Shown here: piece after piece, positions 16,051 through 63,437 of the stretch
Layout: the number at the start of each line of letters is the position of its first letter
How positions within the stretch are numbered: the first letter of the stretch is position 1
Origin: Collinsella aerofaciens
Lineage (GTDB): Bacteria; Actinomycetota; Coriobacteriia; Coriobacteriales; Coriobacteriaceae
Assembly (NCBI RefSeq): GCF_963360655.1
Contig: NZ_OY725712.1
Location: 868,001-932,000, forward strand
DNA: 64,000 nucleotides
Direction of reading: 5' to 3'
The notes under the pieces: model-generated
Databases searched by the model: none
Seen by the model: the letters and a program-made list of their open reading frames with translations, nothing else
Told to the model about the DNA's origin: nothing
Translations under genes and position numbers: made by a program

Positions 16051-18504
16051 CTAGCCGCGGACCTCGCCGTTTACGCCCTTGCACACCTTGGTGACGATCT
16101 TCTGGTGCGCCTTTTCGACCTCTTCGCTGGTGAGCGTGTGGTCGTCGGAGCGATACGTAAGCGCAAAGGCCATGGATTTCTTGCCCTTGCCGATGCGGAC
16201 CGGATCGCGGTAGACATCGAACAGGCGCACGCCCTCGAGCAGCTTGCCGCCGGCACTCGTAATACGACGCTCAAGATCCTCGCAGGTCACAGTGTTGTCA
16301 ACCACGATAGCGAGGTCGTGCTCAACGGCCGGGTACTGCGAGAACTCACGGTAGTTCTCCTGGTTGCGGGCGCCCTTGATCAGCTTATCCAAGTCGAGCT
16401 CAAAGGCGACGACGACCTCGTCAATGCCCATAGCCTCGCGCGCCTCGGGGTGGATCTCGCCGACCCAACCCAGCACGGTGCCGCCGGACAGGACCTCGGC
16501 AGCACGACCCGGCTGCAGGAAGGCATAGCCCTCGCCCTCGACGGGACGGAAGCGAACCTTCTCGATGCGCAGCTGGGCGAGCAGCTCCTCGACGATGCCC
16601 TTGCCAACGAAGAAACGCAGCTTGCGGTACTTCATGCTCCAAGACTGCTCGCTCCACTGGCCCGAGAGCACGCCCGCGACGGACTTGGTCTCCTTGGGCA
16701 GGCTGGCGTTCTCGCGGCCATGGAACAGGCTGCCGACCTCGTACAGGTGTACGTTGGGCGTACCGTGCGCCTCGTTATAGGCAACGGACTGCAGCAGACC
16801 CGGCAGCAGCGAGCGGCGCATCTCGGTCTGCTCGGCCACCAGCGGGTTCATGAGCACCACGGGGCAGCCGCGGCCCTCGGTGGACATGCCGATCTTCTCC
16901 AGGTCGCCCGGAGCGGCAAAGCCAAAGGTCGTGGTCTCGTTGAGGCCGCAGGCGCGCAGGATCTCGCCGACCTTGCGGGTGAGCTTCTGCTCGCGAGTCA
17001 GGCCGCCGATGTGGTTCTTGGCAGCCGGAATGGTCGCCGTGACGCGACCCATGCCCCACAGGCGCAGAACCTCCTCGATCAGGTCGATCTCACGCGGCAG
17101 GTCGGGACGGAAGCTCGGCGGCGTGACCATAAAGTCCTCGCCGTCGCGCTCGACGGTGCAGCCCAGGCGGGTGAGCGAGCGCTCGATAAAGTCGGGCTCG
17201 ATGTCGGCACCGCAGATGGCGTGCACGCGGGCCAGGCGCAGCTTAATGCTGTCGATGGTCTTGGGCGCGGGGAAAACGTCGACATAGCCGGGAGCAACCT
17301 CGCCGCCGGCGATCTCCTCGATCAGCGCGCAGGTAACGTTGGCGACATCCACGCAGCCGGTCTCGTCGACCTGGCGCTCAAAGCGAATGGAGGCGTCGGA
17401 GATCAGCGAAAGGTCGCGGCTGGTGTGCGAGGTGCGGCCGGCATTGAAGCAGGCGCTCTCGACCATCACGTCAACGGTATCGTCCTCGATCTCGGAATCC
17501 ATGCCACCCATAACACCGGCCAACGCCACGGGGCGCTCGCCGTCGGTGATGAGGCCCATGCCGGCGTCAAGCGTGCGCTCCTCGCCGTCGAGCGTCGTGA
17601 ACTTCTCGTCCTGCTGGGCGGCGCGAACCACCACACGACGGTGGCCATCGCGCTCGGCAAAGGTGTCCAGGTCAAAGGCGTGCAGCGGCTGACCGGTGAG
17701 CATCATCACATAGTTGGTGATGTCGACGATGTTGTTGTGCGGGCGCACGCCCAAGGCGTTAAGGCGCTTGACCATCCAGTCGGGCGACGGGCCGACCTTG
17801 ACGTTGCGCACGATGCGGGCAACGTAGCGGTCGCACAGGCCCTCGTCGGCAATCTCGACCGAAAGCTCGTCGTCGGTCGCGCGGCCGGTCTCGGCCTTGA
17901 TGGCGGGCAGCTCAACGTGGAAATCGCGGTCGAAGATGGCGCCGGTCTCGCGGGCCATGCCGATCATGGACAGGCAATCGGGACGGTTGGGCGTGATCTC
18001 GCAGTCGAGCACGGTGTCGCTCGAGCCCACGTACTCGGCAAACGGCATGCCGCAGGGCGTATCCTCGGGCAGGATCATGATGCCGGAGTGGTCGCCGCCC
18101 AAGCCGAGCTCGCGCGCGGAGCAGTTCATGCCCATGGACACGACGCCGCGAAGCTTGCTCTTCTTGATCTTGACGCCGCCGGGCAGGACAGCGCCGATCA
18201 TGGCCGCGACGATGTGGTCACCGGCCTCGAAGTTCTGCGCGCCGCAGACGATCTGCAGCGGAGCGGGGTTGCCGTCGGCGTCGAGGTTCTTGTCACCCAC
18301 GTCGACCGAGCACACATACATGTGGTCGCTATCGGGGTGCGGGGTCTTGGTGAGCACCTGGGCGGTCACCACGTGGTCGAAGGACTCGCCCACGGTGTCG
18401 ATCGCCTCGACCTCGGTGCCGGTACGGATATATTCGTCCGAAAGGGTCTTGGGATCCTCCGGAATATCGATCATGGTCTTGAGCCAGTCGTAAGAAACAC
18501 GCAT
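16051..18504 (-). CDS. pheT: Phenylalanine-tRNA ligase beta subunit
   Basis: The 817-residue beta subunit of the alpha2-beta2 synthetase, which charges tRNA-Phe. It starts MRVSYDWLKTMIDIPE with AAAGGAG upstream. Domains in order: an EMAP-like tRNA-binding domain (about 40-150, VVTAQVLTKTPHPDSDHM), the B3/B4 editing domain (about 210-390, PHNNIVDITNYVM), B5, the catalytic-like core, and the C-terminal FDX-ACB anticodon-binding domain (YPAVEHDLAIVVDNTV...). Length is as usual. It lies downstream of pheS, separated by an unusually large 184-nt gap containing a stem-loop. Confidence 0.97.
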   Translation of the reverse strand: MRVSYDWLKTMIDIPEDPKTLSDEYIRTGTEVEAIDTVGESFDHVVTAQVLTKTPHPDSDHMYVCSVDVGDKNLDADGNPAPLQIVCGAQNFEAGDHIVAAMIGAVLPGGVKIKKSKLRGVVSMGMNCSARELGLGGDHSGIMILPEDTPCGMPFAEYVGSSDTVLDCEITPNRPDCLSMIGMARETGAIFDRDFHVELPAIKAETGRATDDELSVEIADEGLCDRYVARIVRNVKVGPSPDWMVKRLNALGVRPHNNIVDITNYVMMLTGQPLHAFDLDTFAERDGHRRVVVRAAQQDEKFTTLDGEERTLDAGMGLITDGERPVALAGVMGGMDSEIEDDTVDVMVESACFNAGRTSHTSRDLSLISDASIRFERQVDETGCVDVANVTCALIEEIAGGEVAPGYVDVFPAPKTIDSIKLRLARVHAICGADIEPDFIERSLTRLGCTVERDGEDFMVTPPSFRPDLPREIDLIEEVLRLWGMGRVTATIPAAKNHIGGLTREQKLTRKVGEILRACGLNETTTFGFAAPGDLEKIGMSTEGRGCPVVLMNPLVAEQTEMRRSLLPGLLQSVAYNEAHGTPNVHLYEVGSLFHGRENASLPKETKSVAGVLSGQWSEQSWSMKYRKLRFFVGKGIVEELLAQLRIEKVRFRPVEGEGYAFLQPGRAAEVLSGGTVLGWVGEIHPEAREAMGIDEVVVAFELDLDKLIKGARNQENYREFSQYPAVEHDLAIVVDNTVTCEDLERRITSAGGKLLEGVRLFDVYRDPVRIGKGKKSMAFALTYRSDDHTLTSEEVEKAHQKIVTKVCKGVNGEVRG

Positions 18505-18584
18505 CTAGCTCTCCTTTCATACTGAAAGCCTGCGAAGAGATGCAGGTGGAAACTTCAACTTTGTGAACATTCCTTACAAAGCGA

Positions 18585-18686
18585 GGGTTGTCCAAGTGCG
18601 GCAGATCGGCCCGAAAGAGGAGCGCCGCGTACTTTGGTACGCAAGCGACGAATGAGCGCCGAGGTGTCGTGCTTGGGCAAGCCGCA
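18585..18686. repeat. Stem-loop element in the pheS-pheT gap
   Basis: CCAAGTGCG near 18592 pairs (with G-U wobbles) with CGTGCTTGG near 18670. An apical GCGTAC-TTTG-GTACGC hairpin sits inside, with an unpaired Arg/purine-rich interior containing CGAAAGAGGAG. It lies directly after the pheS stop. It resembles a dispersed structured element rather than a simple terminator, because pheT continues downstream. Confidence 0.5.
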
Positions 18687-18688
18687 GC

Positions 18689-19765
18689 CTAGAACTGATT
18701 CAAGAAGCGCATATCACCCGTCATGAGAGTTCTGAGGTCGGGCAGGTCGTAGCGCAGTGCCGCGACGCGCTCGGCGCCAATACCAAAGGCGAAGCCGGTG
18801 TACTTCTCGGGGTCGATGCCACAGTTGATCAGGACGTTGGGGTCGACCATGCCGCAGCCCAGAATCTCGATCCAGCCGCTGTGCTTGCAGAAGTTGCAGC
18901 CCTTGCCGCCGCACACGTGGCAGCTCACGTCCACCTCGCAGGAAGGCTCGGTGAAGGGGAAGAAGTGCGGGCGATAGCGCGTCTTGCGATCCTCACCAAA
19001 CATGCACTTAACAAAGTAGTCGAGCGTGCCCTTAAGATCGCCAAAGGTGATACCCTCGTCGACGACCAGGCCTTCGATCTGGTTGAACTGCGGCAGGTGG
19101 CAGGCGTCGGCCGTGTCGGGACGATAGACGGTGCCCGGGCAGATCATGTAGATGGGCGGCTTTTGCGACTCCATGGTGTGGATCTGCACGCCCGAGGTCT
19201 GGGTGCGCAGCAGCACGTCGGACTCGCCGTGAGCGTGAGCCTCGGGATGCGCAACGCTGCCGGGGTTGTTGTCGACCACATAGAACGTGTCGCGAGCCGA
19301 GCGGCTCGGGTGATCCATGGGCGCGTTGAGCGCGGTGAAGTTGTAGTAGGAGGTATCGACCATGGGGCCGGACTCGACGGTGTAGCCGATGCCGCAGAAG
19401 ATGTCCTCGGCCTCCTCGATGATCTGCTTGATCAGGTGCTGGTGACCGATCTGCGGACGGATACCCGGCAGCGTGATGTCGACGGCCTCGTGCTCGAGTG
19501 CGTGCTTGAGGGCGGCGGCCTTCATCTCGGTGGTGCGCTCGTCGAGCATGCCCTCGATCAGCTGGCGCATCTCGTTGGCGCGTTTGCCCATCATGGGACG
19601 ATCCTCGGGGGCGAGCTTGCCCATCATGCGCATCAGGCCGGTGATGCGGCCCTTGCGGCCGAGCAGCTCAACGCGCGCGGCCTCGAGCTTGGCGGCGTCG
19701 TCGGCACCGGCGACGAGCTCCTTGGCCTCTTCCTCGAGTTTGACCAGATCATCAATCAGACTCAT
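18689..19765 (-). CDS. pheS: Phenylalanine-tRNA ligase alpha subunit
   Basis: The 358-residue catalytic alpha subunit of PheRS. After an N-terminal coiled-coil that grips tRNA (EEEAKELVAGADDAAKLEAARVELLGRKG), the class II core shows motif 2-like YRPDTADACHLPQFNQIEG and motif 3-like FAFGIGAERVAALRY. An inserted CHVCGGKGCNFCKHSGW cysteine cluster in the core suggests a bound zinc, which is found in some bacterial PheS. The start is ATG 19765 (MSLIDDLVK); a longer frame to 19948 would run back through the T-box terminator. Expression is governed by the T-box leader upstream. Confidence 0.96.
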   Translation of the reverse strand: MSLIDDLVKLEEEAKELVAGADDAAKLEAARVELLGRKGRITGLMRMMGKLAPEDRPMMGKRANEMRQLIEGMLDERTTEMKAAALKHALEHEAVDITLPGIRPQIGHQHLIKQIIEEAEDIFCGIGYTVESGPMVDTSYYNFTALNAPMDHPSRSARDTFYVVDNNPGSVAHPEAHAHGESDVLLRTQTSGVQIHTMESQKPPIYMICPGTVYRPDTADACHLPQFNQIEGLVVDEGITFGDLKGTLDYFVKCMFGEDRKTRYRPHFFPFTEPSCEVDVSCHVCGGKGCNFCKHSGWIEILGCGMVDPNVLINCGIDPEKYTGFAFGIGAERVAALRYDLPDLRTLMTGDMRFLNQF

Positions 19766-50114: not shown

Positions 50115-50149
50115 CCGGCAACGCCGATGTTTTGGCGCGGACAGCGAAA

Positions 50150-50287
50150 GCCCGCCAGAGCGAGCAAGGTGCCTTGAAACGAGGCGGCATTGACCTTCTG
50201 GTCATGCCGCCGAAGTTGAAAGGCAGATTGCCGCTCTGGCGGGCTTGCAGCGTCGAGCCGTTACGCGGTTTGGTAAAACCGCGTAAC
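50150..50287. ncRNA. Conserved structured RNA element, copy 1
   Basis: On the plus strand: P1 GCCCGCCAGAGCG (50150-50162) with CGCTCTGGCGGGC (50232-50244); P2 GCCTT (50171-50175) with AAGGC (50220-50224); P3 GGCGGCAT-T-GACC (50183-50195), loop TTCT, GGTCATGCCGCC (50200-50211). The joining segments GCAAGGT, GAAACGA, GAAGTTGA and AGATTG are identical in copy 2, while P1, P2 and P3 base pairs differ and still match. A perfect hairpin GTTACGCGGTTT/AAACCGCGTAAC (50260-50287) ends it, directly after the gntR3 stop. Strand of action is unknown. Confidence 0.7.
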
Positions 50288-51007
50288 TTACATGACCATA
50301 ACGTAGCGCGATCCCACGTAGTACTGCTTACCCATCAGGACCGGCTCGCCATTGGGGCCGATAAAGCCGGCACGCAGGTTGAGCAGTGGATCGTGCGGAG
50401 CGATGCCCAGCTCGGCCGCCTGCTCGGTATTGGCACGAACGGCCTCGACCGTGCGGTAGCCAACCGAGACAATCGGCGTTCCGCCAACACGCTCGACCTC
50501 GGAAAAAATCGACTTGTCCTCAAGATCGGCCGTCAACAGCTCACGGTAGGCGTCAAACGGCACAAAGATGTTCTCCTCAAAAATGGGCTCGCCGTCGGCC
50601 GTACGCACGCGCTTGATGTGCAGCAGCAGCGCGTCCTTCTGCAGGCCAAAGAACTCCATCTCGTTTTGACGTGCCGGCACAATCTGGCGATCGACCACAT
50701 GTGCGCCCGCCTTCATGCCATTATCGGCACACAGCGCGGTAAACGTCTGCAGCGTCGAAGCGTGGAACTGGCGGTTGATGTGCGGCGTGGAGACAAAGGT
50801 GCCACGGCCCTGCTGCTTAACCAGGTAGCCATCGGAGCACAGCTCCTCGACGGCGCGGCGCACCGTAATGCGGCTCACGTCGTACTGCTCGGCTAGCTCA
50901 AGCTCGGACGGAATACGCTCCTTGGGTGCATAAACACCTTTCTCGATCGCATCCTTGATTTCGTCGTAAATCTGCTGGTAAAGCGGTGCATTTTTGGGCG
51001 CAGGCAT
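50288..51007 (-). CDS. GntR/HutC family regulator (GntR3)
   Basis: A 239-residue regulator: GntR winged helix (APLYQQIYDEIKDAIEKGVY, DVSRITVRRAVEELCSDGYL, QGRGTFV) and UTRA domain ending KQYYVGSRYVMVM. An ACGTTATA-type motif in its own promoter region is shared with the PTS 2 operon and the second EamA gene, so it probably controls these and itself. Its stop is followed at once by the structured RNA element. It is the nearest regulator to PTS 2, separated by YitT and HAD genes. Confidence 0.9.
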   Translation of the reverse strand: MPAPKNAPLYQQIYDEIKDAIEKGVYAPKERIPSELELAEQYDVSRITVRRAVEELCSDGYLVKQQGRGTFVSTPHINRQFHASTLQTFTALCADNGMKAGAHVVDRQIVPARQNEMEFFGLQKDALLLHIKRVRTADGEPIFEENIFVPFDAYRELLTADLEDKSIFSEVERVGGTPIVSVGYRTVEAVRANTEQAAELGIAPHDPLLNLRAGFIGPNGEPVLMGKQYYVGSRYVMVM

Positions 51008-51048
51008 ATCTAATCACTCTTATCGAAATATCGAAATAACTAATACGT

Positions 51049-51067
51049 ATATAACGTCTAGTTTCAT
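51049..51067. promoter_or_regulatory. Candidate GntR3 operator before gntR3
   Basis: On the plus strand ATATAACGTCTAGTTTCAT; on the minus strand the core TAGACGTTATAT overlaps the likely -10 of gntR3. Similar sites lie at 57193-57211 and 58469-58491. Confidence 0.5.
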
Positions 51068-51100
51068 ATTACCTCATAATGATAAAACGATACACCCTCC

Positions 51101-51149
51101 CTACCAAAAAGCGACAGCTTCATTTTGGTAGGTTTTATCTGGGCAAACG
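51101..51149 (+). repeat. Dispersed CCTACCAAAAAGGGACAGG repeat, copy 2
   Basis: CTACCAAAAAGCGACAGCTT, then CATTTTGGTAGG and TTTTATCTGGGCAAACG, matches 41414-41463 in the opposite orientation. It lies between the divergent gntR3 promoter and the YitT 3' end. Confidence 0.7.
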
Positions 51150-51228
51150 AGAGCCTCTCGAAAGCAACGGGGCTTTCGGGGGGGGCTCGTTCGGATGGGT
51201 TGCGCAGGACCGGCAAAATGCCAATACC

Positions 51229-52236
51229 CTACTTGCCGTCGTCCTGCTGCAGACTGTCCTGTTCGCTGAGGCGCGCCTGCCTGCTGGCCATGCGTGCGGG
51301 CTTGTCGGGATCGGGAACGGCCGTGGGCATGGGCTCGTCGACATGACCACCCCACCAGCCGCCCACAAAGTTGAGCGTGTGGAACACATTGATCACGGCG
51401 CCGGGATCAACGTCGCACACCAGCTTGATAATGTCCTGACTCTCGTAGGTCGAGACAACGGTGTTCAGCAGGTACATCTTTTCGCGGCTATATCCGCCGA
51501 CGACCTCGGCGCAGCTAATGCCGTGCTGAAAATGGTTTACGTAGGCAGTCATGACCTCGTCTGCCTTACGCGTCGTGATCTGCAGCGTCACGCGATCGTA
51601 GCGACGATAGAAACTGTCGATGGTCTTGGTCGAAATAAACTGGAACACGATGGAATACGCCGCCTTGTCCCAGCCAAACATAAAGCCAAAGATCGCCAGG
51701 ATAAAGCAGTTGAAACCAAAGATGACGCCCCAGATGGTCTTGCCCGTGTGGTTGGAAACCCACAGCGCGATAAAGTCGGTGCCGCCGGTGGATGCGCCGG
51801 ATTTAAGTGCGATGGCAGCGCCCAGACCCGAGACCACGCCGCCAAAAATGATGAGCATGATCTTGTCGCCCAAAAATGGAGCGAAGTGAAAGACGTTGAG
51901 GAACAGCGACGAGAGCACGACCTGCATCATCGAGAAGATGACGAAGCGCTTGCTAATGCCGCTCCAGCATAGGAGCGCCACGGGGATGTTGAGCGCGAGC
52001 ATACCGAGCGAAATATCGATGTGAACGCCACCCAGCGAGGTAACGCGATCGAGCAGGACCGCAACGCCGGTAAGACCGCTCGGAAGCAGGTCGGCGGGCT
52101 GAATGAACGCCTGGATCAGGAATGTCTGGAGAACGGCGGAAATCGTGACCGCCACGGCAGTAATGGCGCGGCGGACGATGGTAAGGCGGCCGAGCACGAG
52201 CACGCGGTCCGTGAGCTGATCGATGGCGTTCGCCAC
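51229..52236 (-). CDS. YitT family membrane protein
   Basis: A 335-residue protein with five to six membrane helices in the first about 200 residues (AITAVAVTISAVLQTFLIQAF, IMLIIFGGVVSGLGAAIAL, GVIFGFNCFILAIFGFMFG), the family motif GASTGGTDFIALW, and a C-terminal DUF2179 domain (DRVTLQITTRKADEVMTAYV). The function of YitT proteins is not established. A hydrophilic tail of about 40 residues follows. Start GTG 52236 has AAAGGAG 6 nt upstream; ATG 52257 lacks one. Confidence 0.88.
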   Translation of the reverse strand: MANAIDQLTDRVLVLGRLTIVRRAITAVAVTISAVLQTFLIQAFIQPADLLPSGLTGVAVLLDRVTSLGGVHIDISLGMLALNIPVALLCWSGISKRFVIFSMMQVVLSSLFLNVFHFAPFLGDKIMLIIFGGVVSGLGAAIALKSGASTGGTDFIALWVSNHTGKTIWGVIFGFNCFILAIFGFMFGWDKAAYSIVFQFISTKTIDSFYRRYDRVTLQITTRKADEVMTAYVNHFQHGISCAEVVGGYSREKMYLLNTVVSTYESQDIIKLVCDVDPGAVINVFHTLNFVGGWWGGHVDEPMPTAVPDPDKPARMASRQARLSEQDSLQQDDGK

Positions 52237-52374
52237 GCGGGCTCCTTTCGAAGGCAAATCTGGTTGTGAGGCATGTCGGCGATTGTAGCACGGAGCATGC
52301 GGGGGCGCTTCAATTCACCCTCCCTCGACAACCAAAGCGGGACCAGCAACCCCACGACCAAAGGCCCAAATAAC

Positions 52375-52493
52375 AAGTGAGTAGACTTTACGCGACCTGC
52401 AGAGCACACCCAAAACCGCCACCCCTGTGACCTGCGGTTTTACTAGAGCAGATGCGCTTTGTGCTCGTCTTGCACCAAAAAGTCTACTCACTT
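52375..52493. repeat. 119-bp inverted-repeat element
   Basis: AAGTGAGTAGACTTT (52375-52389) is exactly reverse-complemented at 52479-52493. Inside, CAAAACCGC pairs with GCGGTTTT and GAGCACA with TGTGCTC. There is no open frame. It fills the centre of the 52237-52590 gap. Confidence 0.7.
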
Positions 52494-52590
52494 AGTCCGA
52501 ATCGAAGCCAAACGGATCCAAATAGATGACAAATTAAGCCAATCCGCAGCAAAAGACGCGTGAATCAGTGCTTCTCGCGGCGGATTGACG

Positions 52591-53220
52591 CTACAAAGCG
52601 GCCAAAATGTCGGTCAGATTATCGATAACGGCATCGGCTCGCGATTGATCGAGGTTGACACCCTCGTGCGGACGCAGCGCCAGGACGCGGGCGCCGGAGC
52701 GCTTACCAGCCTCGATGCCCAAAGGCGAATCCTCGATAACCAGGCACTCGGCAGGCTCCACCCCCAGTGCCTCCATGGCACGCAGGTAGATCTCGGGGTC
52801 GGGCTTAAACGCACTGCACTCGTGACCGCTGATGGTGTAGTCCAGCACGTCGGGGATACCGGCAATCTCCACCAGCTCGTCAATGAGCTCGCGATAGGAC
52901 GAGCTCGCGATGGCACACTTCACGCCACGCTCGTGCAGCTCGCGCATCACCGGCTCCGTCTGCTCGTTGAGCAGCTCGGCATACGGAACGGGGTGGTCCG
53001 GGCTGTAGACTTGCTTGTACTCCACGCGCAGACGCTCGCGCAGCTCAACATCGTCGGGCACCAGCGCCTCCCAAATGGCAGGCTCGTTAGACCCCGAAAG
53101 ATCGGGGATCTCGTCAAAATGGAACCCCTTCTCTTCCATAAACGCCACGCGACGACGGTTGTAGAACCACTCGGTATCGACCAGCACGCCGTCCATATCA
53201 AACAGCACTGCTTTGATCAT
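52591..53220 (-). CDS. HAD-IA family phosphatase / beta-phosphoglucomutase-like
   Basis: A 209-residue HAD hydrolase beginning MIKAVLFDMDGVLVDTEWF (motif I DMDGV), with motif II in CAIASSSYRELID, the Lys region KPDPEIYLRAMEALGV and motif III/IV in CLVIEDSPLGIEAG. The DGV/L-T-E cap type is shared by beta-phosphoglucomutase and sugar-phosphatases. Close to PTS 2 and SIS 3 on the same strand, it may dephosphorylate a sugar phosphate from that pathway, but this is inference. ATG 53220 has GGGAGGAG upstream; a longer frame through a repeat to 53352 was rejected. Confidence 0.85.
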   Translation of the reverse strand: MIKAVLFDMDGVLVDTEWFYNRRRVAFMEEKGFHFDEIPDLSGSNEPAIWEALVPDDVELRERLRVEYKQVYSPDHPVPYAELLNEQTEPVMRELHERGVKCAIASSSYRELIDELVEIAGIPDVLDYTISGHECSAFKPDPEIYLRAMEALGVEPAECLVIEDSPLGIEAGKRSGARVLALRPHEGVNLDQSRADAVIDNLTDILAAL

Positions 53221-53235
53221 ACGCATCTCCTCCCA

Positions 53236-53276
53236 CCTGCCAAAAAGGGACAGGTTTATTTTGGTAGGTTTTATCT
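53236..53276 (+). repeat. Dispersed CCTACCAAAAAGGGACAGG repeat, copy 3
   Basis: CTGCCAAAAAGGGACAGGTT followed by TATTTTGGTAGG and TTTTATCTG. A shortened copy of the unit at 41414 and 51101. Confidence 0.65.
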
Positions 53277-53317
53277 GAGGTTTTGTGGCGCGACGGATAC
53301 GCCCTCCCCAGAGCAAA

Positions 53318-53349
53318 AAAGGGGACGGGGCGCAAACCCCATCCCCTTT
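53318..53349 (-). terminator. Terminator of PTS 2 / SIS 3 operon
   Basis: AAAGGGGACGGGG (53318-53330) and CCCCATCCCCTTT (53337-53349) pair with one mismatch around CGCAAA; a T-run follows on the minus strand. Confidence 0.85.
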
Positions 53350-53380
53350 CAATCAACCCGTAAGGTTTACTTACTTGTGA

Positions 53381-54364
53381 TTAGTAGGAAAGCTTCCACA
53401 TGTAGCGACGCATGGTCAGCGGGTGCTGACGGGCCTCGGCGATCTGGTTGCCGTACTCGCGCATAACGGCGAGGTGCAGCAGCGGGTTGAAGTAGGTGAG
53501 GACGCTCGCGGGCACGGCGTCAGCCAGGCCGTAGTCCTTGGAGTCGATCAGAGCGACCTTGGCGCCCATGCGCTTAAGGAAGGTGAGGGCGCGGGCGTCC
53601 ATCGGACGGGTAGCACCGTCGGACATGAGGAAGACGTAGGGCTTACCCTCGGTGGAAACCTCGAACGGGCCGTGGAAGTACTCGCCGGTGTTGTAGGAAG
53701 CAGCGTCGATCCACTGCATCTCGGTGAACAGGAAGGCGGCGTTAGAATAAGCCATCTTCTCGGAGGCACCGGAGGCCATGAAGTAGATCATCTTGTCGTC
53801 CTTGAAGTCCTGAGCGAACTGCTTGGCCAGGCCCTTGGCGGAGTGAGCAGCGTTCTCGATCAGCTCGAAGATGTTGGTGAGGCCGGTGATCATGTCCTCG
53901 TAGTGATCATAGCCCTCGGTCTGCTGAAGGATCTCGAGAGCAAGAGCGATGGCGTAGGCGGGCTTCTCGGCCTTGGCAGCATAGTTGGCATGGAAGCCGT
54001 GAACGATGACGTGGTCGGCGTCGACGGTCAGAGCGGAGCCAGCCTTGTTGGTGAGGGAGACAACCGGGCAGTTGTGCTTCTTGGCGGTCTTGTTGGCCTC
54101 GACGGTCTCGGGCGTGGAGCCACCGAGGGAGCAGGTGATCACGAAGGTGTGCTCGTTGACCCAAGAAGGCGTGTCGTAGTTGAACTCGTTAGCGGTGAAG
54201 ATCTGAACGTTCAGCTTGTCCGTGTTGTTGGCCAGGAAGTACTTGGCGGGGTAAAGGTCGGACATGGAGGCACCGCAGCCGACGAAAGCGACGCTGTGGA
54301 TCTCGTGGTTGGACAGGACGTCAGCGACGATCTGCTTAGGGAGGTTAAGGTCGATCTCGTACAT
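53381..54364 (-). CDS. FrlB-like SIS-domain deglycase/isomerase (SIS 3)
   Basis: A 327-residue double-SIS protein (SVAFVGCGASMSDLYP, ITCSLGGSTPETVEA) with the catalytic-region motif NTGEYFHGPFEV and the C-terminal HPLTMRRYMWKLSY. Last gene of the IIAB-IIC-IID-SIS operon, after a 199-nt gap with two hairpins. It would act on the sugar-phosphate made by PTS 2. ATG 54364 is preferred (AAAGGA 9 nt before); longer starts are within the hairpin region. Confidence 0.86.
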   Translation of the reverse strand: MYEIDLNLPKQIVADVLSNHEIHSVAFVGCGASMSDLYPAKYFLANNTDKLNVQIFTANEFNYDTPSWVNEHTFVITCSLGGSTPETVEANKTAKKHNCPVVSLTNKAGSALTVDADHVIVHGFHANYAAKAEKPAYAIALALEILQQTEGYDHYEDMITGLTNIFELIENAAHSAKGLAKQFAQDFKDDKMIYFMASGASEKMAYSNAAFLFTEMQWIDAASYNTGEYFHGPFEVSTEGKPYVFLMSDGATRPMDARALTFLKRMGAKVALIDSKDYGLADAVPASVLTYFNPLLHLAVMREYGNQIAEARQHPLTMRRYMWKLSY

Positions 54365-54455
54365 CTGACACATTCCTTTCAATTTTTGCGGCGCCACATT
54401 GCCGGGCGCTCGCAGGGTTACCGTGGTTTGGGCCGAGTCGCCGGCCCGTTGAGGA

Positions 54456-54529
54456 TGCGACAAAGGGACTGTCCCATTGTCGCATTTTGGGGATGGAAGC
54501 CTGCCTGGGGTATGGGATGCCAGGCAGGC
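54456..54529 (-). repeat. Two strong hairpins between IID and SIS 3
   Basis: Hairpin 1: TGCGACAAAGGGAC (54456-54469) with GTCCCATTGTCGCA (54471-54484), one mismatch. Hairpin 2: GCCTGCCTGG (54499-54508) with CCAGGCAGGC (54520-54529), perfect. Neither has a T-run, so they are more likely processing or stability elements than terminators. Confidence 0.6.
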
Positions 54530-54563
54530 CCCCGGGGGAAAGCGGTTAGGCGCTTAGTCGCGA

Positions 54564-55397
54564 CTAAGCCAGGATGCCGACCGCGGAGAGGGCGATGCCG
54601 CCCACAATGGCGATCACGAGAAGCCAACCGGTGTTGACGTTCTTCTTGATGAGCCAGTACATAAGGCCGGTGAGGCCAAGGGAGATCATCTGGGGCATCA
54701 TGCTGTCCAGGATGTCCTGGATAACGACAGTGCCGTCAGCGAACTGCAGCGGGGTGGTGGCGCCGATGAGCGTGGCGATCATGCCGCCCACGGACATAAG
54801 ACCCACGATGCCGCAGACATACATGAGCTTCTCCATGAGGTCGCCGCCCTGAAGCTTGCTCAGGTACTCGTGGCCGCCCTGATAGCCCATCTTGGCTGCG
54901 AACCAAGTAATCAGCACGGAGGGGACGATGGAGATGAGAAGGGCCAGGATCGGGCCCATGATGGAGCCCTGCTGAGCCAGCTGAACGCCCAAGCCAAAGG
55001 CGATAACGCGGATGGTGCCCTGGAAGAAGGAGTCACCGATGCCGGAAAGCGGGCCCATAAGGGAGGTCTTGACCGCGTTAATCGAATCGGGGTTGAAGTT
55101 CTCGGGATCCTTGGCGTACTCCTCCTCCATGGAGGCGGCGAGGCCCAGGATGAAAGCGCTCGTCTGCGGGGTGCAGTTGTAGAACGCCATGTGACGGTGG
55201 TAAGCCTCTTTCTTAGCAGCAAGCTGCTTGGGGTCGGACTCGTCCGGATAGAGGCGATCGAGCGTGGGAACCATACCGTAGAGGAAGCCCATGTTCATCT
55301 GACGCTCGTAGTTCCAAGAGGCCTGGATGGCCCAGGAGCGCCAGAAGAACTGGCTGACCTTCTTGTTCAGGGACACGTCCTTGGTTGCGGTTGCCAT
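54564..55397 (-). CDS. Mannose-family PTS IID component (PTS 2)
   Basis: A 277-residue EIID starting MATATKDVSLNKK at ATG 55397, with AAGGAGG upstream. It has the family landmarks IQASWNYERQMNMGFLY, ILGLAASMEEEY and LMGPLSGIGDSFFQGTIR, and a C-terminal helix (WLLVIAIVGGIALSAVGIL). Follows IIC by 13 nt. It is about the same length as the PTS 1 IID but clearly divergent, so the two systems probably differ in substrate. Confidence 0.94.
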   Translation of the reverse strand: MATATKDVSLNKKVSQFFWRSWAIQASWNYERQMNMGFLYGMVPTLDRLYPDESDPKQLAAKKEAYHRHMAFYNCTPQTSAFILGLAASMEEEYAKDPENFNPDSINAVKTSLMGPLSGIGDSFFQGTIRVIAFGLGVQLAQQGSIMGPILALLISIVPSVLITWFAAKMGYQGGHEYLSKLQGGDLMEKLMYVCGIVGLMSVGGMIATLIGATTPLQFADGTVVIQDILDSMMPQMISLGLTGLMYWLIKKNVNTGWLLVIAIVGGIALSAVGILA

Positions 55398-55410
55398 AGT
55401 GTGTTCCTCC

Positions 55411-56205
55411 TTAGTCTTCGTCGTCTTCGAGCGGATCGTAGTCGGAATCGACACCGGCGGCTGCATGGGAACCGTTGAACTTGAAGCCCATGAAGACGAC
55501 AGCCAGGCACACACCGATCAGAGCGACCGCGATGACGGACAGGTTGAGGTAAGCGGCGAGCAGGAAACCGATGAACAGGAACGGAGTCATACCCTTCTTG
55601 ATCATCATGGTGAGCAGCAGGGCCAAGCCGTAGGCGGTCATGATCTTGGTCGAAACGTTAAGACCAGTGGACAGCCACTCGGGAACCATGTTGACGATGG
55701 CCTGAACCAGGTCGGTGCCAACAAAAACGGCGAGGAAGATCGGCAGGAAGTACATGACGGCGTACAGACCGGAGCCGGCGCAGATGTGCATACGGTAGGC
55801 GGTCTTGAACTTTCCGTTATCGATCGCGCTATCTGCCACATGGGTGAGGGCGGCGATGATGGAACGGAACACGATGCCGAGAAGCTGACCCAGGACGGCG
55901 ACCGGGATGGCGATCGTCATGGCGGTCTCGGCGGAAGCATCGGTCAGGCACGCAAAGGCAGCGGCCACGATGCCGCCCAGGACCATATCGGGCGGAACGG
56001 CGGCGCCGACCTGCACCAGGCCCATGGACACGAGCTCGACGGCGGCACCGACGGCAAGGCCGGTGGGCACATCGCCCAGCAGCAGACCGACGAGCGTAGC
56101 GCCAACGAGGGGCTGCTCGAAGTTAAGACGACCGAGCAGGCGGGAGTCCCACATGCAGAACACGCCGACGAGGCCGACGAGCACCGCACTGATGAACGTA
56201 TTCAT
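55411..56205 (-). CDS. Mannose-family PTS IIC component (PTS 2)
   Basis: A 264-residue polytopic EIIC. It begins MNTFISAVLVGLVGVFCMWD and carries the LGDVPTGLAVGAAVELVSMG and VGAAVPPDMVLGGIV region of the family. The acidic tail (DYDPLEDDED) is similar to that of PTS 1. GGAG lies before the ATG. It forms the sugar channel with IID and takes phosphate transfer from IIB. Confidence 0.94.
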   Translation of the reverse strand: MNTFISAVLVGLVGVFCMWDSRLLGRLNFEQPLVGATLVGLLLGDVPTGLAVGAAVELVSMGLVQVGAAVPPDMVLGGIVAAAFACLTDASAETAMTIAIPVAVLGQLLGIVFRSIIAALTHVADSAIDNGKFKTAYRMHICAGSGLYAVMYFLPIFLAVFVGTDLVQAIVNMVPEWLSTGLNVSTKIMTAYGLALLLTMMIKKGMTPFLFIGFLLAAYLNLSVIAVALIGVCLAVVFMGFKFNGSHAAAGVDSDYDPLEDDED

Positions 56206-56241
56206 ACCCTTCTCCTTTCAGTCAGGCAAAAGCCTGGTTGA

Positions 56242-57165
56242 TTACAGCTTGGCGTCGATGTCGACGCTCTGATACGTAGGGGTCTGCTGAACATAGAGCT
56301 TGATGCCCATGTCGAGCAGCTGATTGACGTCGGCCTTCTGGGTGGCGTCGAGAAAGACGGAGCTGTCCTTGCCGCCGACCTGATCGGCACCGTCGTGGTT
56401 GGCGGTGGCGCCCAGGTTGATGGCGTCGAGCTTGTAGCCCTGGCAGAACTGCAGCATCTCGGCAGTGTTGCCAAAGACGAACATGACGCGCTCGCCGAGG
56501 GTGTTGAGCTTGTCCATCTTGGCGAGGGCACGCTCGACGGTGAAGACGTTCAGGCGCACGCCCTGGGGCTTGGCCAGCTTGAGAGCGCCCTTCTTGATGT
56601 CATCGTTGGCGGCAGCGTTGTCGACGACGATGATGCGCTCGGCCTGAACCTTGGTGGTCCAGGTAAAGACGACCTGGCCGTGCAGCAGACGGTAGTCAAG
56701 ACGTGCGAGGACGATCTTGGCGGGACCGGAGCTGTGACGGGACGCCGTGGCCTTCTTGGCGGGGGCCGCGGCGGCCTCGACCGGTGCGTTGGGGTTGGTC
56801 AGACCGGTGCGGGCCTCGTTGATGAGGGCCGCGAGCTCGGCGCCCTTGACGGGGACGGGGCTCATAGCGAGCGTGAGCGCCAGCGGGATGTTGAAACCGC
56901 TGACAACCGTGAACTTCGTGCCGTTCTTGGAAAGCTCGACCATGCTGTTGTTGACCGAGCTGCCGAGCATATCGGTCAGCACATAGACGGTGTCGTCCGC
57001 GTTGAACGTGGCGATCATGGCGTCCACCTTGTTGGTGATGGGCTCCTTGTCGTCACGAGCAAGCGACACGACGTGGACGTTCGACACGTCGCCGAGAACC
57101 ATCTCGAGCGTGTCTTTGGCGCCTGCGGCCAGGCCGCCATGAGATGCGAGAATGATCTGATTCAT
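56242..57165 (-). CDS. Mannose-family PTS IIAB fusion (PTS 2)
   Basis: A 307-residue fusion. IIA: residues 1-120 with His9 (LASHGGLAAGAK). A Pro/Ala-rich linker at about 127-148 (APVEAAAAPAKKATASRH). IIB: residues 149-307 with His162 in LDYRLLHGQVVFTW and INLGATANHDG. First gene of the operon; the promoter -10 TATAAT (minus strand, 57197-57192) overlaps a GntR3-type motif. GGAGGAGG precedes the ATG. It receives phosphate from HPr. Confidence 0.95.
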   Translation of the reverse strand: MNQIILASHGGLAAGAKDTLEMVLGDVSNVHVVSLARDDKEPITNKVDAMIATFNADDTVYVLTDMLGSSVNNSMVELSKNGTKFTVVSGFNIPLALTLAMSPVPVKGAELAALINEARTGLTNPNAPVEAAAAPAKKATASRHSSGPAKIVLARLDYRLLHGQVVFTWTTKVQAERIIVVDNAAANDDIKKGALKLAKPQGVRLNVFTVERALAKMDKLNTLGERVMFVFGNTAEMLQFCQGYKLDAINLGATANHDGADQVGGKDSSVFLDATQKADVNQLLDMGIKLYVQQTPTYQSVDIDAKL

Positions 57166-57192
57166 CTTGCCTCCTCCTTTTCGTTATGGTCA

Positions 57193-57211
57193 TTATAACG
57201 TCTTATACGTT
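57193..57211. promoter_or_regulatory. Candidate GntR3 operator before PTS 2 operon
   Basis: TTATAACGTCTTATACGTT on the plus strand; minus core AAGACGTTATAA. It covers the likely -10 TATAAT of the PTS 2 operon. Same motif as at 51049 and 58469. Confidence 0.55.
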
Positions 57212-57347
57212 GCTTATATTGCTAATTAGTATAAAGACCGTTCGCGGGTGAAAATCGACCGTTGACGGGTTTAACGTACTTGAAACGTTGGGGCTGGGTA
57301 GGTCGGCGCTGGCTTGGCGGTGCCCGATCAAGCGCCCCACTCATCCC

Positions 57348-58430
57348 CTATCGCACGAAGTACCAGGGGCTTTCCTGCACGGTGGGCTCCAGCGCGATGC
57401 CGGTGCGCTCGCGGAACAGATCCATGTCCTGCGATTTCTCCGTCCACCACGCGTTGGGCTTAAAGGTCATGCTCTCAACGATATGGCCGACAAAGGCACT
57501 GTTGCGCAGCTTGGAGAAGTTAGTGTTCATGATCAGGATGGACGCGAGCACCAGCACGATGCCCAGGACCTTGATCGCGCCGGCGGGCTCGGCATAGATG
57601 CCAATACCGACCAGAACGGTCGCAACGGTTTCAAACGAAGCCACGACCGGCACCTTCGACGTCTCAAGATCCATCGAAAGGCCCTGCATATAGAAGATGT
57701 ACGCAAGAGCCGTCGGAATAAAGCCAAAGCCCGCGAACAGCAGAATGAGCTGCGGGGACATTGCCGCGGCCACATCGGACCACGGAGCCGAAAGCACTGC
57801 CATAAAGCATCCGCCAAAGACAAAGCCCCAAAACGTCACCGCCAGCGGATGCAGCGTCTTGGTAGCCATACGGCTAAACACAGCCAGTAGCGCACCGCAA
57901 AGCCCGGCGATCACACCCGACACGACGCCCCAAGCCGAGAAATGGAAACCGGACAGGTCGCCGCTCGTCACCGCGAGCACGCAACCCACAATGTTAAAGA
58001 CGATGGCGACGAGCTTGTTGGGGGTCACGTCCTCGCGATAAAGCACGCGGCCGAGCACGACGCCAAACACCGGCGAGGTGTAAAGCAGCACCGAGGCCGT
58101 GGACATGCCCACCTCGCCCATGCACTCGTAATAAAGCGTGTTAGCGGTAGCGAGGCCGATAATGCCAAGAAGCGCGCAGGGAACAAGCTCTTTAGGACTT
58201 GCCTTGAACAGTGCCATGGCACCCGAGGCTTTTCCCTCACGAGCACCTCCCTGGCAACCCATAAATGCCAAGACCGGAGCCATTAAGACAGCACCCGACA
58301 ACAGGCGAAAGGCCGCCATGCTCTGAGACGAAACACCCAGGGCCGATATTCCGTTAACAAAGATTCCGATGGTGCCCCACATAAGCGCGGCGATCAGCAC
58401 TAGCACATAGCCCAGATTGCTTTTCTTCAA
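57348..58430 (-). CDS. EamA/DMT family permease (second copy)
   Basis: A 360-residue protein with ten hydrophobic helices in two EamA repeats (from LGYVLVLIAALMWGTIGIFV; second from FSAWGVVSGVIAGLCGALLAV) and a hydrophilic C-terminal tail of about 70 residues. Because it shares a putative GntR3 operator with PTS 2, it might export the amine released by the SIS deglycase. This is inference. Start TTG 58430 has GAGGAGG 5 nt upstream; GTG 58466 lies inside the operator-leader and has no Shine-Dalgarno. Confidence 0.83.
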   Translation of the reverse strand: MKKSNLGYVLVLIAALMWGTIGIFVNGISALGVSSQSMAAFRLLSGAVLMAPVLAFMGCQGGAREGKASGAMALFKASPKELVPCALLGIIGLATANTLYYECMGEVGMSTASVLLYTSPVFGVVLGRVLYREDVTPNKLVAIVFNIVGCVLAVTSGDLSGFHFSAWGVVSGVIAGLCGALLAVFSRMATKTLHPLAVTFWGFVFGGCFMAVLSAPWSDVAAAMSPQLILLFAGFGFIPTALAYIFYMQGLSMDLETSKVPVVASFETVATVLVGIGIYAEPAGAIKVLGIVLVLASILIMNTNFSKLRNSAFVGHIVESMTFKPNAWWTEKSQDMDLFRERTGIALEPTVQESPWYFVR

Positions 58431-58468
58431 CGCAGCCTCCTCGGTATTGTTTCCAATATGTTTCACAC

Positions 58469-58491
58469 TACGTTATAGTCGTTATATACAT
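58469..58491. promoter_or_regulatory. Candidate GntR3 operator before second EamA gene
   Basis: CTACGTTATAG immediately followed by TCGTTATATACA; two ACGTTATA-like half sites head to tail. It is 40-60 nt before the TTG start. Same core as 51049 and 57193. Confidence 0.5.
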
Positions 58492-58554
58492 TTTTCAAGA
58501 CACAAATCGGCGAGCGGAAAAATCTGCTCCCCACATACTCATTGAGTAGTCATT

Positions 58555-58594
58555 GGGGACGCACTTAAATGACTGGTCATTCAAGTGCGTCCCC
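58555..58594. repeat. Imperfect palindrome beside repeat copy 2
   Basis: GGGGACGCACTTAAATGAC (58555-58573) pairs with GTCATTCAAGTGCGTCCCC (58576-58594), one mismatch. No T-run. Confidence 0.6.
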
Positions 58595-58652
58595 CAACGA
58601 CTAGGACTGTCCCCAACTGCCGGCAGAAAAGGAACGTTCCCAACGTCTAAGG
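58589..58652. repeat. AACGTCCCCAA / GTGCCGGC dispersed repeat, copy 2
   Basis: GTCCCCCAACGACTAGGACT, GTCCCCAACTGCCGGCAG, AAAAGGAACGTTCCCAACG matches the repeat at 50035-50114. Confidence 0.7.
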
Positions 58653-58678
58653 CGCCGCTGGTTGAGCATAAGTCAGCG

Positions 58679-58818
58679 AGCGGGCCGCATTTGAGGCAAG
58701 GTGACGTGAAACGAAAGGGCGCTGACCTTCTGGTCGCGCCCTTGAAGTTGAACGTCAGATTGTCCAAATGCGGACCGCTCAGCGTCGAGCCGTTACGCGG
58801 TTTGGTAAAACCGCGTAA
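58679..58818. ncRNA. Conserved structured RNA element, copy 2
   Basis: On the plus strand: P1 AGCGGGCCGCATTTGA (58679-58694) with TCCAAATGCGGACCGCT (58763-58779); P2 GACGT (58703-58707) with ACGTC (58752-58756); P3 AAGGGCGC-T-GACC (58715-58727), loop TTCT, GGTCGCGCCCTT (58732-58743). Joining segments GCAAGGT, GAAACGA, GAAGTTGA and AGATTG, the bulged T of P3 and the terminal ACGCGG hairpin equal those of copy 1. It follows the SIS 4 stop directly. Confidence 0.7.
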
Positions 58819-59811
58819 CTAATACTCAAGCTTCCACATGTAGCGGCGCGTCATGTAGTCCTTGTGGGTGACGGCGGAGAGCGCGCGCATATACACGTTG
58901 TTGAGGATCGGGGCAAAGATCAGGTGGTTGAAGTACTCGCTCACGCTGTCCTTGATGTCGTTGAGGCCGAGCTCCTTGGCGTCGAGCTGATAGACGCGCT
59001 CGCCACCGTACTGGTTGACGAAGCGGATGCCGCGCTCGTCGTTGCAGCGGCTGCGGCCGACGCTGATGAGCTGGAACAGCGAGGTGCGCTTGTCCAGGAT
59101 CTCGAAGGGGCCGTGGAAGAAGTCGCAGGTGTTGATGGTGCAGGAGTCGATCTGCAGCATCTCCTGCACGTTGCAGATGCTAAAGACGTAGGCGGCACCA
59201 AAGAGCGGGCCCTGGGCCATGACGTTGATGCAGGGCTTGTCGGCGTTCTGCTCGGCCCACTTGGCAGCGAGCGGACGGGTATACTCGACGGCCTTGCGAT
59301 AGATGGGGTCGACCAAGTCGAAGGCGGCCATAGCGGTCTCGTACTCGGCATAGCCCTCGGTCTGCTGCGTAAGCTCCATGGCGATCATGGTCACGACGGC
59401 GGAGTTGGTGCGGCCCATGCAGGACTCGTCGACGGCCAGGCTGTCGTACTGAATCTTGTAGTCGCAGACCTCGGTGAGGCCGGACTCGTCAACATAGATG
59501 GCGATGGTGCTGGCGCCGTGGTCCTTGGCGACCTGGGCGGCAACGATGGTCTCCTTGGTGCCGCGCATGGACACGACGACGGCCAGGGTGTTCTCGTTGA
59601 CGTAGGCCGGGGTGGCGTGCACGAACTCGTTGCTGGTGTAGCTGGAGCTCACGACCTGCGTGGCCTCGTGCTCCATAAAGTACTGGGCAGGATAGTTGCC
59701 GCCGTTGGATCCGCCGGCGCCAATCCACACGACGCGCTTGATGCCGCCCTTGTCTGCCTTGTCAGCCAAAACCTGGGAGACGACGTCCTTAACCTGTTCC
59801 TGAGTAGTCAT
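58819..59811 (-). CDS. FrlB-like SIS-domain protein (SIS 4)
   Basis: A 330-residue double-SIS protein (VVWIGAGGSNGGNYP, VVVSMRGTKETIVAA). The catalytic-region motif reads NTCDFFHGPFEI, so the Glu found in the three other SIS proteins is Asp here, while His is kept. C-terminus: MTRRYMWKLEY. It has no PTS of its own and is divergently paired with GntR4 across a region of repeated GCATACAA sites. The structured RNA element starts at its stop codon. Substrate unknown; it may act on a different glycated amine or be an isomerase. Confidence 0.84.
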   Translation of the reverse strand: MTTQEQVKDVVSQVLADKADKGGIKRVVWIGAGGSNGGNYPAQYFMEHEATQVVSSSYTSNEFVHATPAYVNENTLAVVVSMRGTKETIVAAQVAKDHGASTIAIYVDESGLTEVCDYKIQYDSLAVDESCMGRTNSAVVTMIAMELTQQTEGYAEYETAMAAFDLVDPIYRKAVEYTRPLAAKWAEQNADKPCINVMAQGPLFGAAYVFSICNVQEMLQIDSCTINTCDFFHGPFEILDKRTSLFQLISVGRSRCNDERGIRFVNQYGGERVYQLDAKELGLNDIKDSVSEYFNHLIFAPILNNVYMRALSAVTHKDYMTRRYMWKLEY

Positions 59812-63393: not shown

Positions 63394-63437
63394 GGAGCCA
63401 GAGTGCCCAAATGGGGCGTTTGCAGCGTCGACCCGTT
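63394..63437 (-). repeat. Truncated relative of the structured RNA element
   Basis: On the minus strand, right after the mfd stop, ACGGGTCGACGCTGCAAACG leads into CATTTGGGCACTCTG, matching the ACGGCTCGACGCTG and CATTTGGACAATCTG of copy 2. The remaining two thirds are missing. Confidence 0.55.

Follow-up and report, generated by a model that had tools for sequence, protein, structure and literature searches.

The 64,000-nucleotide stretch of the Collinsella aerofaciens genome analyzed here (the window) contains two copies of a long imperfect palindrome, one behind the gene for a GntR-UTRA regulator and the other behind the gene for a SIS-domain protein. Each copy consists of a left arm, a structured core and a second hairpin (hairpin 2); the coordinates are collected in Table 1. 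The stop codon of the GntR-UTRA gene (50288-50290) abuts hairpin 2 of copy 1, and that of the SIS gene overlaps hairpin 2 of copy 2 at the final base of the hairpin. Both copies had been reported in the first-pass annotation as lying after a stop codon, and both were located in the window. A stop codon does adjoin each of them, but the genes are on the minus strand, and the plus strand on which the annotation read the element is antisense to the abutted gene. The segments that it listed as invariant, GCAAGGT, GAAACGA, GAAGTTGA, AGATTG and GACC-TTCT-GGTC, are the same letters in the two copies, as is the bulged T; helices P1, P2 and the lower part of P3 are unlike in sequence, with pairing preserved. 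The predicted RNA folding energies of the two copies are about 10 standard deviations below those of dinucleotide shuffles.

Table 1. Copies of the palindromic element in the window and the genes behind which copies 1 and 2 lie (R2, covariance model).
Feature	Position	Strand	Basis
Left arm, copy 1, GCAACGCCGATGTTTTGGCGCGGAC type	50118..50142	+	Most own-genome copies have a similar 25-base arm ahead of the core
Structured core, copy 1, subtype A	50143..50253	+	R2 120.6 bits, E 1.4e-26; fold z -10.5
Hairpin 2, copy 1, GTTACGCGGTTT-GGTA-AAACCGCGTAAC	50260..50287	+	Sequence
Host gene, copy 1: GntR-UTRA regulator	50288..51007	-	ORF; PF00392 + PF07702
Left arm, copy 2, GGTTGAGCATAAGTC type	58651..58674	+	Arm comparison, own-genome copies
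Structured core, copy 2, subtype B	58675..58785	+	R2 109.8 bits, E 5.2e-24; fold z -9.8
Hairpin 2, copy 2	58792..58819	+	Same sequence as in copy 1
Host gene, copy 2: SIS-domain protein	58819..59811	-	ORF; PF01380
Third complete core, divergent, without hairpin 2	18580..18690	+	R2 55.0 bits, E 7.9e-11
Truncated right end of element	63399..63431	+	Motif search; minus-strand stop codon at a distance of 4 bases

The core is a hairpin of ~110 nt built from P1, P2 and P3, with purine mismatch loops that are conserved and an apical loop of the form TTNN, and is flanked by GTCAGCGA and GCAGCGTCGA. In copy 1, the order is AGCGA, P1, the AGGT/AGAT loop, P2, the GA/GA loop, P3, the TTCT apical loop and GCAGCGT. 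Across the copies, the left arm carries a loose CAGGT...GTC pattern followed by AGCGA; the loop between P1 and P2 opposes AGGT to AGAT, sometimes with the sides exchanged; tandem GA mismatches lie between P2 and P3; and P3 has a bulged T or A and may contain a second GA/GAA loop. After GCAGCGTCGA and two or three further bases, there usually follows hairpin 2, a perfect hairpin; 0-10 nt separate its foot from the stop codon on the opposite strand, and its loop has the form GNA or GNNA in 38 of 44 cases. Such loops are stable in DNA.

The third core in the window sits between two minus-strand genes, pheS, whose stop codon is at 18689-18691, and pheT, which starts at 18504, and the end of pheS in another family also bears an element (L326). 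The locus of the truncated right end is represented in other strains by full, empty and remnant alleles. Across the genome, 11 copies match the exact motif compared to none for the reversed control pattern, and the covariance model R1 finds ~33 copies. R2 yields 47 matches, 3 of which repeat counted places on the other strand, leaving about 44 places, so that the copies are far beyond chance expectation. Each of the 16 strict hairpin-2 sites in the genome has an element next to it. One copy (L088) lies behind the 3' end of what we take, by eye, to be RNase P RNA.

The named relatives of the host locus come from C. aerofaciens strains and other Collinsella, and the family reaches much further. 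Matches to R1 are present in 31 of 43 genomes of the genus and 42 of 65 of the family, and matches to R2 in 143 of 396 sampled genomes of Coriobacteriia, representing 38 of 153 genera; nine candidates were scored per genome in the class search, and the copy numbers per genome are to be read as at least those counted. The whole layout is preserved in copies from other families. Searched against Rfam 15, the window yields only a tRNA, with the best matches at copies 1 and 2 far under the gathering threshold, which rules out a known RNA family at that threshold, and literature searches limited to open-licence papers returned no description of this palindrome family. The family, made up of long imperfect palindromes located directly after the stop codons of many genes and distributed class-wide, is large and had not been catalogued before. 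The original observation is real and understated: the proposal of a new structured family with covarying helices is borne out by the lack of an Rfam match, by strong covariation among 83 sequences and by the class-wide spread, the covariance-model search suggested in the first-pass annotation having delivered the genome and class counts given above. At five loci of other Coriobacteriaceae (L133, L134, L135, L136, L137), two tandem elements lie ~120-210 bases apart behind one gene.

In the alignment of 83 sequences (A6), which was fitted to the structure, 92.5% of the cells are paired, and in 40 of 41 pairs both partners change while remaining paired. The structure has a covariation score of 0.67; slid versions and shuffles score no higher than 0.10 and 0.18, respectively. 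The purine mismatch loops (AGGT/AGAT and GA/GA) are kept. Long DNA palindromes self-correct through template switching, and examples of such correction are found here: both strands of L194 and of L151 give matches, and the apex of L104 is inverted. Palindrome correction at the DNA level could account for part of the covariation. The compensatory changes are weaker proof of RNA function than originally assumed, and, because the alignment is fitted to the structure and the arms can be corrected by template switching, constraint is better shown by the mismatch loops than by the paired positions. Even single-site copies without the end modules retain these loops.

The placement of the element relative to genes is equally distinctive. 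For 22 of 30 copies in the C. aerofaciens genome, at most a few bases separate the hairpin foot from the stop codon of a long ORF on the opposite strand, compared to a random-position background of 5-6%. It is the right end that abuts the stop codon, with a fixed orientation to the host gene, and in copies without hairpin 2, the core itself is often at the stop codon. The hosts are mixed housekeeping genes, and several recur across genera or families, including groEL (in three families), pheS, asnS, purH, the B12-type ribonucleotide reductase, a permease, an ATP-synthase-like gene and others; beyond the proteins assigned by Pfam, these are presumptive names read from protein ends. By a rough count in which pairs are not independent, the same gene carries the element in 14 cross-family pairs, against about 2 expected. 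Several hosts look like tRNA synthetases or translation factors (pheS, tyrS, lysS, ileS, asnS and prfA, as read from the proteins). The location of copies 1 and 2 in a region of glycated-amine genes, to which the first-pass annotation had drawn attention, is a coincidence, and a glycated-amine regulon is ruled out, given that the genes ahead of the copies are unrelated housekeeping genes.

Of the cluster representatives, 97% fold better as the plus strand, the one antisense to the gene, under either RNA or DNA parameters. This would be expected if purine mismatches on that strand take the place of the pyrimidine mismatches into which they turn on the messenger strand. A G-T/A-C imbalance on model-fitted alignments (33:6 and 89:45) is suggestive; among anchored cluster representatives it is 27:16 (p 0.13), not significant, and a strand call from wobble imbalance was therefore rejected. 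No terminator-like site was found at copies 1 and 2 on either strand, and the absence of a U-tract rules out an ordinary intrinsic terminator, that is, a GC-rich hairpin followed by a T run.

Comparison of strains reveals extensive variation. At the SIS-gene locus, strains carry one of several subtypes of the element or another hairpin in its place. At the GntR locus, element sequence lies at the stop codon in all C. aerofaciens-group strains with a readable gene and downstream sequence, several of these copies being nested or truncated, and a third compared locus has empty, filled and remnant alleles. Filled and empty sites, the mark of mobility in MITEs of the YPAL/ERIC type, are thus both found. 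New copies occur at the apex or the foot of old ones, and no target duplication is evident at the one clean site, where the flanks have diverged. Given this insertion, replacement, nesting and deletion between strains, the element behaves in Collinsella as a mobile mosaic palindromic repeat, similarly to YPAL or REP. According to the first-pass annotation, a match to a transposable repeat with identical helices would speak against a structured RNA family; the element is indeed a dispersed repeat, but its helices covary between subtypes. At six strain loci (L185, L186, L188, L193, L195, L196), the element after the SIS gene is replaced by a long hairpin, GTTGCGGTG...CACCGCAAC, which also occurs elsewhere, for example, at about position 2270 of L154.

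No mobilizing gene was found in the Y1-transposase loci or in ~2 Mb of fetched loci, and lone right-end motifs in the same ~2 Mb, sought as signs of an autonomous version, are only nested copies, remnants and chance matches. Among the 30 Y1-transposase loci sampled, the sole strong element match lies beside an IS200-type gene that is inserted in a copy. With R1, all 31 element-bearing genomes of the genus have a Y1 transposase; with R2, three genomes that lack one match weakly, and the co-occurrence was dropped for that reason. RAYT-like genes are flanked by a different inverted repeat, which rules out a REP mobilized by RAYT. Carriage by phages or plasmids was likewise rejected: searches yielded no DNA similar to copy 1 in plasmids, none similar to copy 2 in phages and no strict motif in viral contigs, the matches listed for a looser 14-base pattern being taken as chance.

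Other mobile elements were encountered along the way. An IS110-family insertion sequence at L192:11147-12680 (a weak PF01548 match below the curated cut-off, in an apparently frameshifted ORF) has CT at both junctions, and the insertion recurs at one identical point, the conserved left end CGCT/GAC, in many element copies (L005, L024, L025, L027, L046, L058, L061, L065, L083, L189, L274); by analogy with insertion sequences that target REPs, this one appears to target the palindrome. At L154:1180-2130, a subtype B copy has an IS200-type transposase unit inserted in its GA-mismatch loop. A different repeat, with GTAG and GGGGACG motifs, is present in the window (58540-58640) and at L168:2258-2384 and L171:2261-2383, where it forms inverted pairs beside RAYT-like genes, and is probably the REP of the Collinsella RAYTs.

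The element resembles several known repeats. YPAL (RU-2) of Yersinia is ~168 bp long, highly folded, intergenic and recently mobile, as judged from filled and empty sites; its target adjoins or spans a dyad symmetry, and it may affect the stability of upstream transcripts (PMC2229807). The coriobacterial element is likewise palindromic, folded, mobile by filled and empty sites and located beside dyads, but its hosts are unrelated to those of YPAL, it has no evident counterpart of the 3-26 bp target duplications, it conserves structure rather than sequence across a class, and it sits at stop codons. REPs and BIMEs are dispersed palindromes, mostly downstream of genes, that are targeted by insertion sequences (PMC3733652), and E. 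coli REPs at most 15 nt from a stop codon affect translation and stall ribosomes, as summarized in a passage of PMC12306157 that cites Liang 2015. REPs, however, are 20-40 bp long and tagged by GTAG or CGTC, whereas the core here is 110 nt, and the Collinsella RAYT-like genes examined adjoin the different, GTAG-bearing repeat. CGTC does follow the core in CAGCGTCGA, with a stem and tail unlike the described CGTC REP families (PMC3733652), and tag, size and flanks rule out a REP of either class. ERIC (RU-1) is a 127-bp imperfect palindrome, co-transcribed with its neighbors and exerting an orientation-dependent effect on upstream mRNA stability (PMC2229807). It is of a similar palindromic kind but has TA termini and target duplications, and no sequence relation was seen. 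Integron attC sites also follow stop codons as imperfect hairpins and are recognized by structure more than by sequence; in the loci examined here no cassette array is seen, the orientation of the core sites (RYYYAAC/GTTRRRY in attC) does not fit by eye, and the hosts are fixed housekeeping genes. Actinobacterial tandem or U-less intrinsic terminators are stable hairpins just after the stop codon, from which the element differs in its conserved mismatch loops and flanking motifs and in its presence inside the pheS-pheT operon.

We tentatively prefer, at somewhat less than an even chance, a model in which the element is a cis-acting hairpin of mRNA 3' ends, ancient in Coriobacteriia, coupled to the stop codon and secondarily amplified. 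The hairpins would fold directly behind the stop codon as the messenger 3' end or operon spacer is made, and could then shield the upstream message against 3' exonucleases, reduce read-through into the following gene and, by analogy with the stop-proximal REPs of E. coli, slow or stall the terminating ribosome; the kept mismatch loops may be recognition or cleavage sites for a protein or nuclease. Within Collinsella, it has also been copied round the genome as a mobile mosaic repeat, as the insertion polymorphism shows. We favor this 3'-end model because of the excess of stop-codon adjacency with fixed orientation, the recurrence of the same genes in different genera and families, the element inside the pheS-pheT operon, the loops kept in single-site copies without end modules, the other hairpins that element-less alleles bear at the same place, and the ribosome stalling described for REPs in the cited passage of PMC12306157. 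Against it, the antisense plus strand folds better and its purine mismatches look like the selected motif, a U-tract is lacking, and the conserved end motifs and nested insertions speak for a mobile element. The main rival reading regards the family as selfish and non-autonomous, recognized as folded single-stranded DNA, as REPs are by RAYT transposases and integron attC sites are by structure, and inserting beside or into hairpins near gene ends, with any 3'-UTR effect a by-product. We rate this as less likely than the 3'-end model. It is consistent with the strain-to-strain insertion, replacement, nesting and truncation without evident target duplication, with ends conserved across families, with the DNA-stable loops of hairpin 2, with the better folding of the plus strand under DNA parameters too, and with the appearance of new copies at the apex or at the foot of older copies, but the mobilizing gene was not found, RAYT-like genes own different repeats, and, taken alone, it leaves the siting at stop codons, the recurrence of genes in distant families and the loop retention in single-site copies unexplained. 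The 3'-end model accounts for where the element sits, for its recurrence at the same genes and for the kept loops of old single-site copies, and the single-stranded DNA model for strand stability, conserved ends and mobility. The two are compatible if a cis element also became mobile; the original suggestions of a 3' UTR regulator, which fits the preferred model, and of a part of a mobile repeat, supported by the strain comparison, seem to be both true at once.

Other readings fare worse. It is improbable that the element is a passive palindrome, its arms kept paired by DNA self-correction and its position extragenic by weak selection, with only an optional terminator-like role for the hairpin: clear cases of correction and apex inversion exist, and deletion and truncation are frequent, yet correction would erase the mismatch loops, which persist across the class, and gene recurrence and stop-codon placement do not fit. 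Most unlikely of all is a plus-strand RNA, be it a free small RNA, as the first-pass annotation had also proposed, a riboswitch-like element or an antisense regulator. The more stable plus-strand fold, the tandem GA motifs and the UUNN apical loop are compatible with RNA, but no promoter-like site was found at copy 1 and a single weak one ~200 bases upstream of copy 2, about 44 copies are dispersed behind unrelated genes, the plus strand should not be transcribed at pheS-pheT, and the element is located 3', not 5', of genes. Finally, there is a slim chance of a class-wide, structure-specific recombination or transposition system, whose putative enzyme would read the hairpin as folded single-stranded DNA and set copies directly behind stop codons; a mobile element would then provide housekeeping genes with a common, interchangeable 3' end.

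In Proteobacteria, palindromic repeats behind genes are already well known. What differs here is that the structure, not the sequence, is conserved over a class (38 genera), keeps its mismatch loops, is locked to stop codons and accompanies the same genes in different families, which opens to testing the long-standing question whether such repeats are selfish DNA or working parts of mRNA 3' ends. The element explains part of the intergenic variability in Collinsella and Eggerthella-group genomes, and it probably shapes the ends of messenger RNAs and spreads, in Collinsella, like small mobile repeats.
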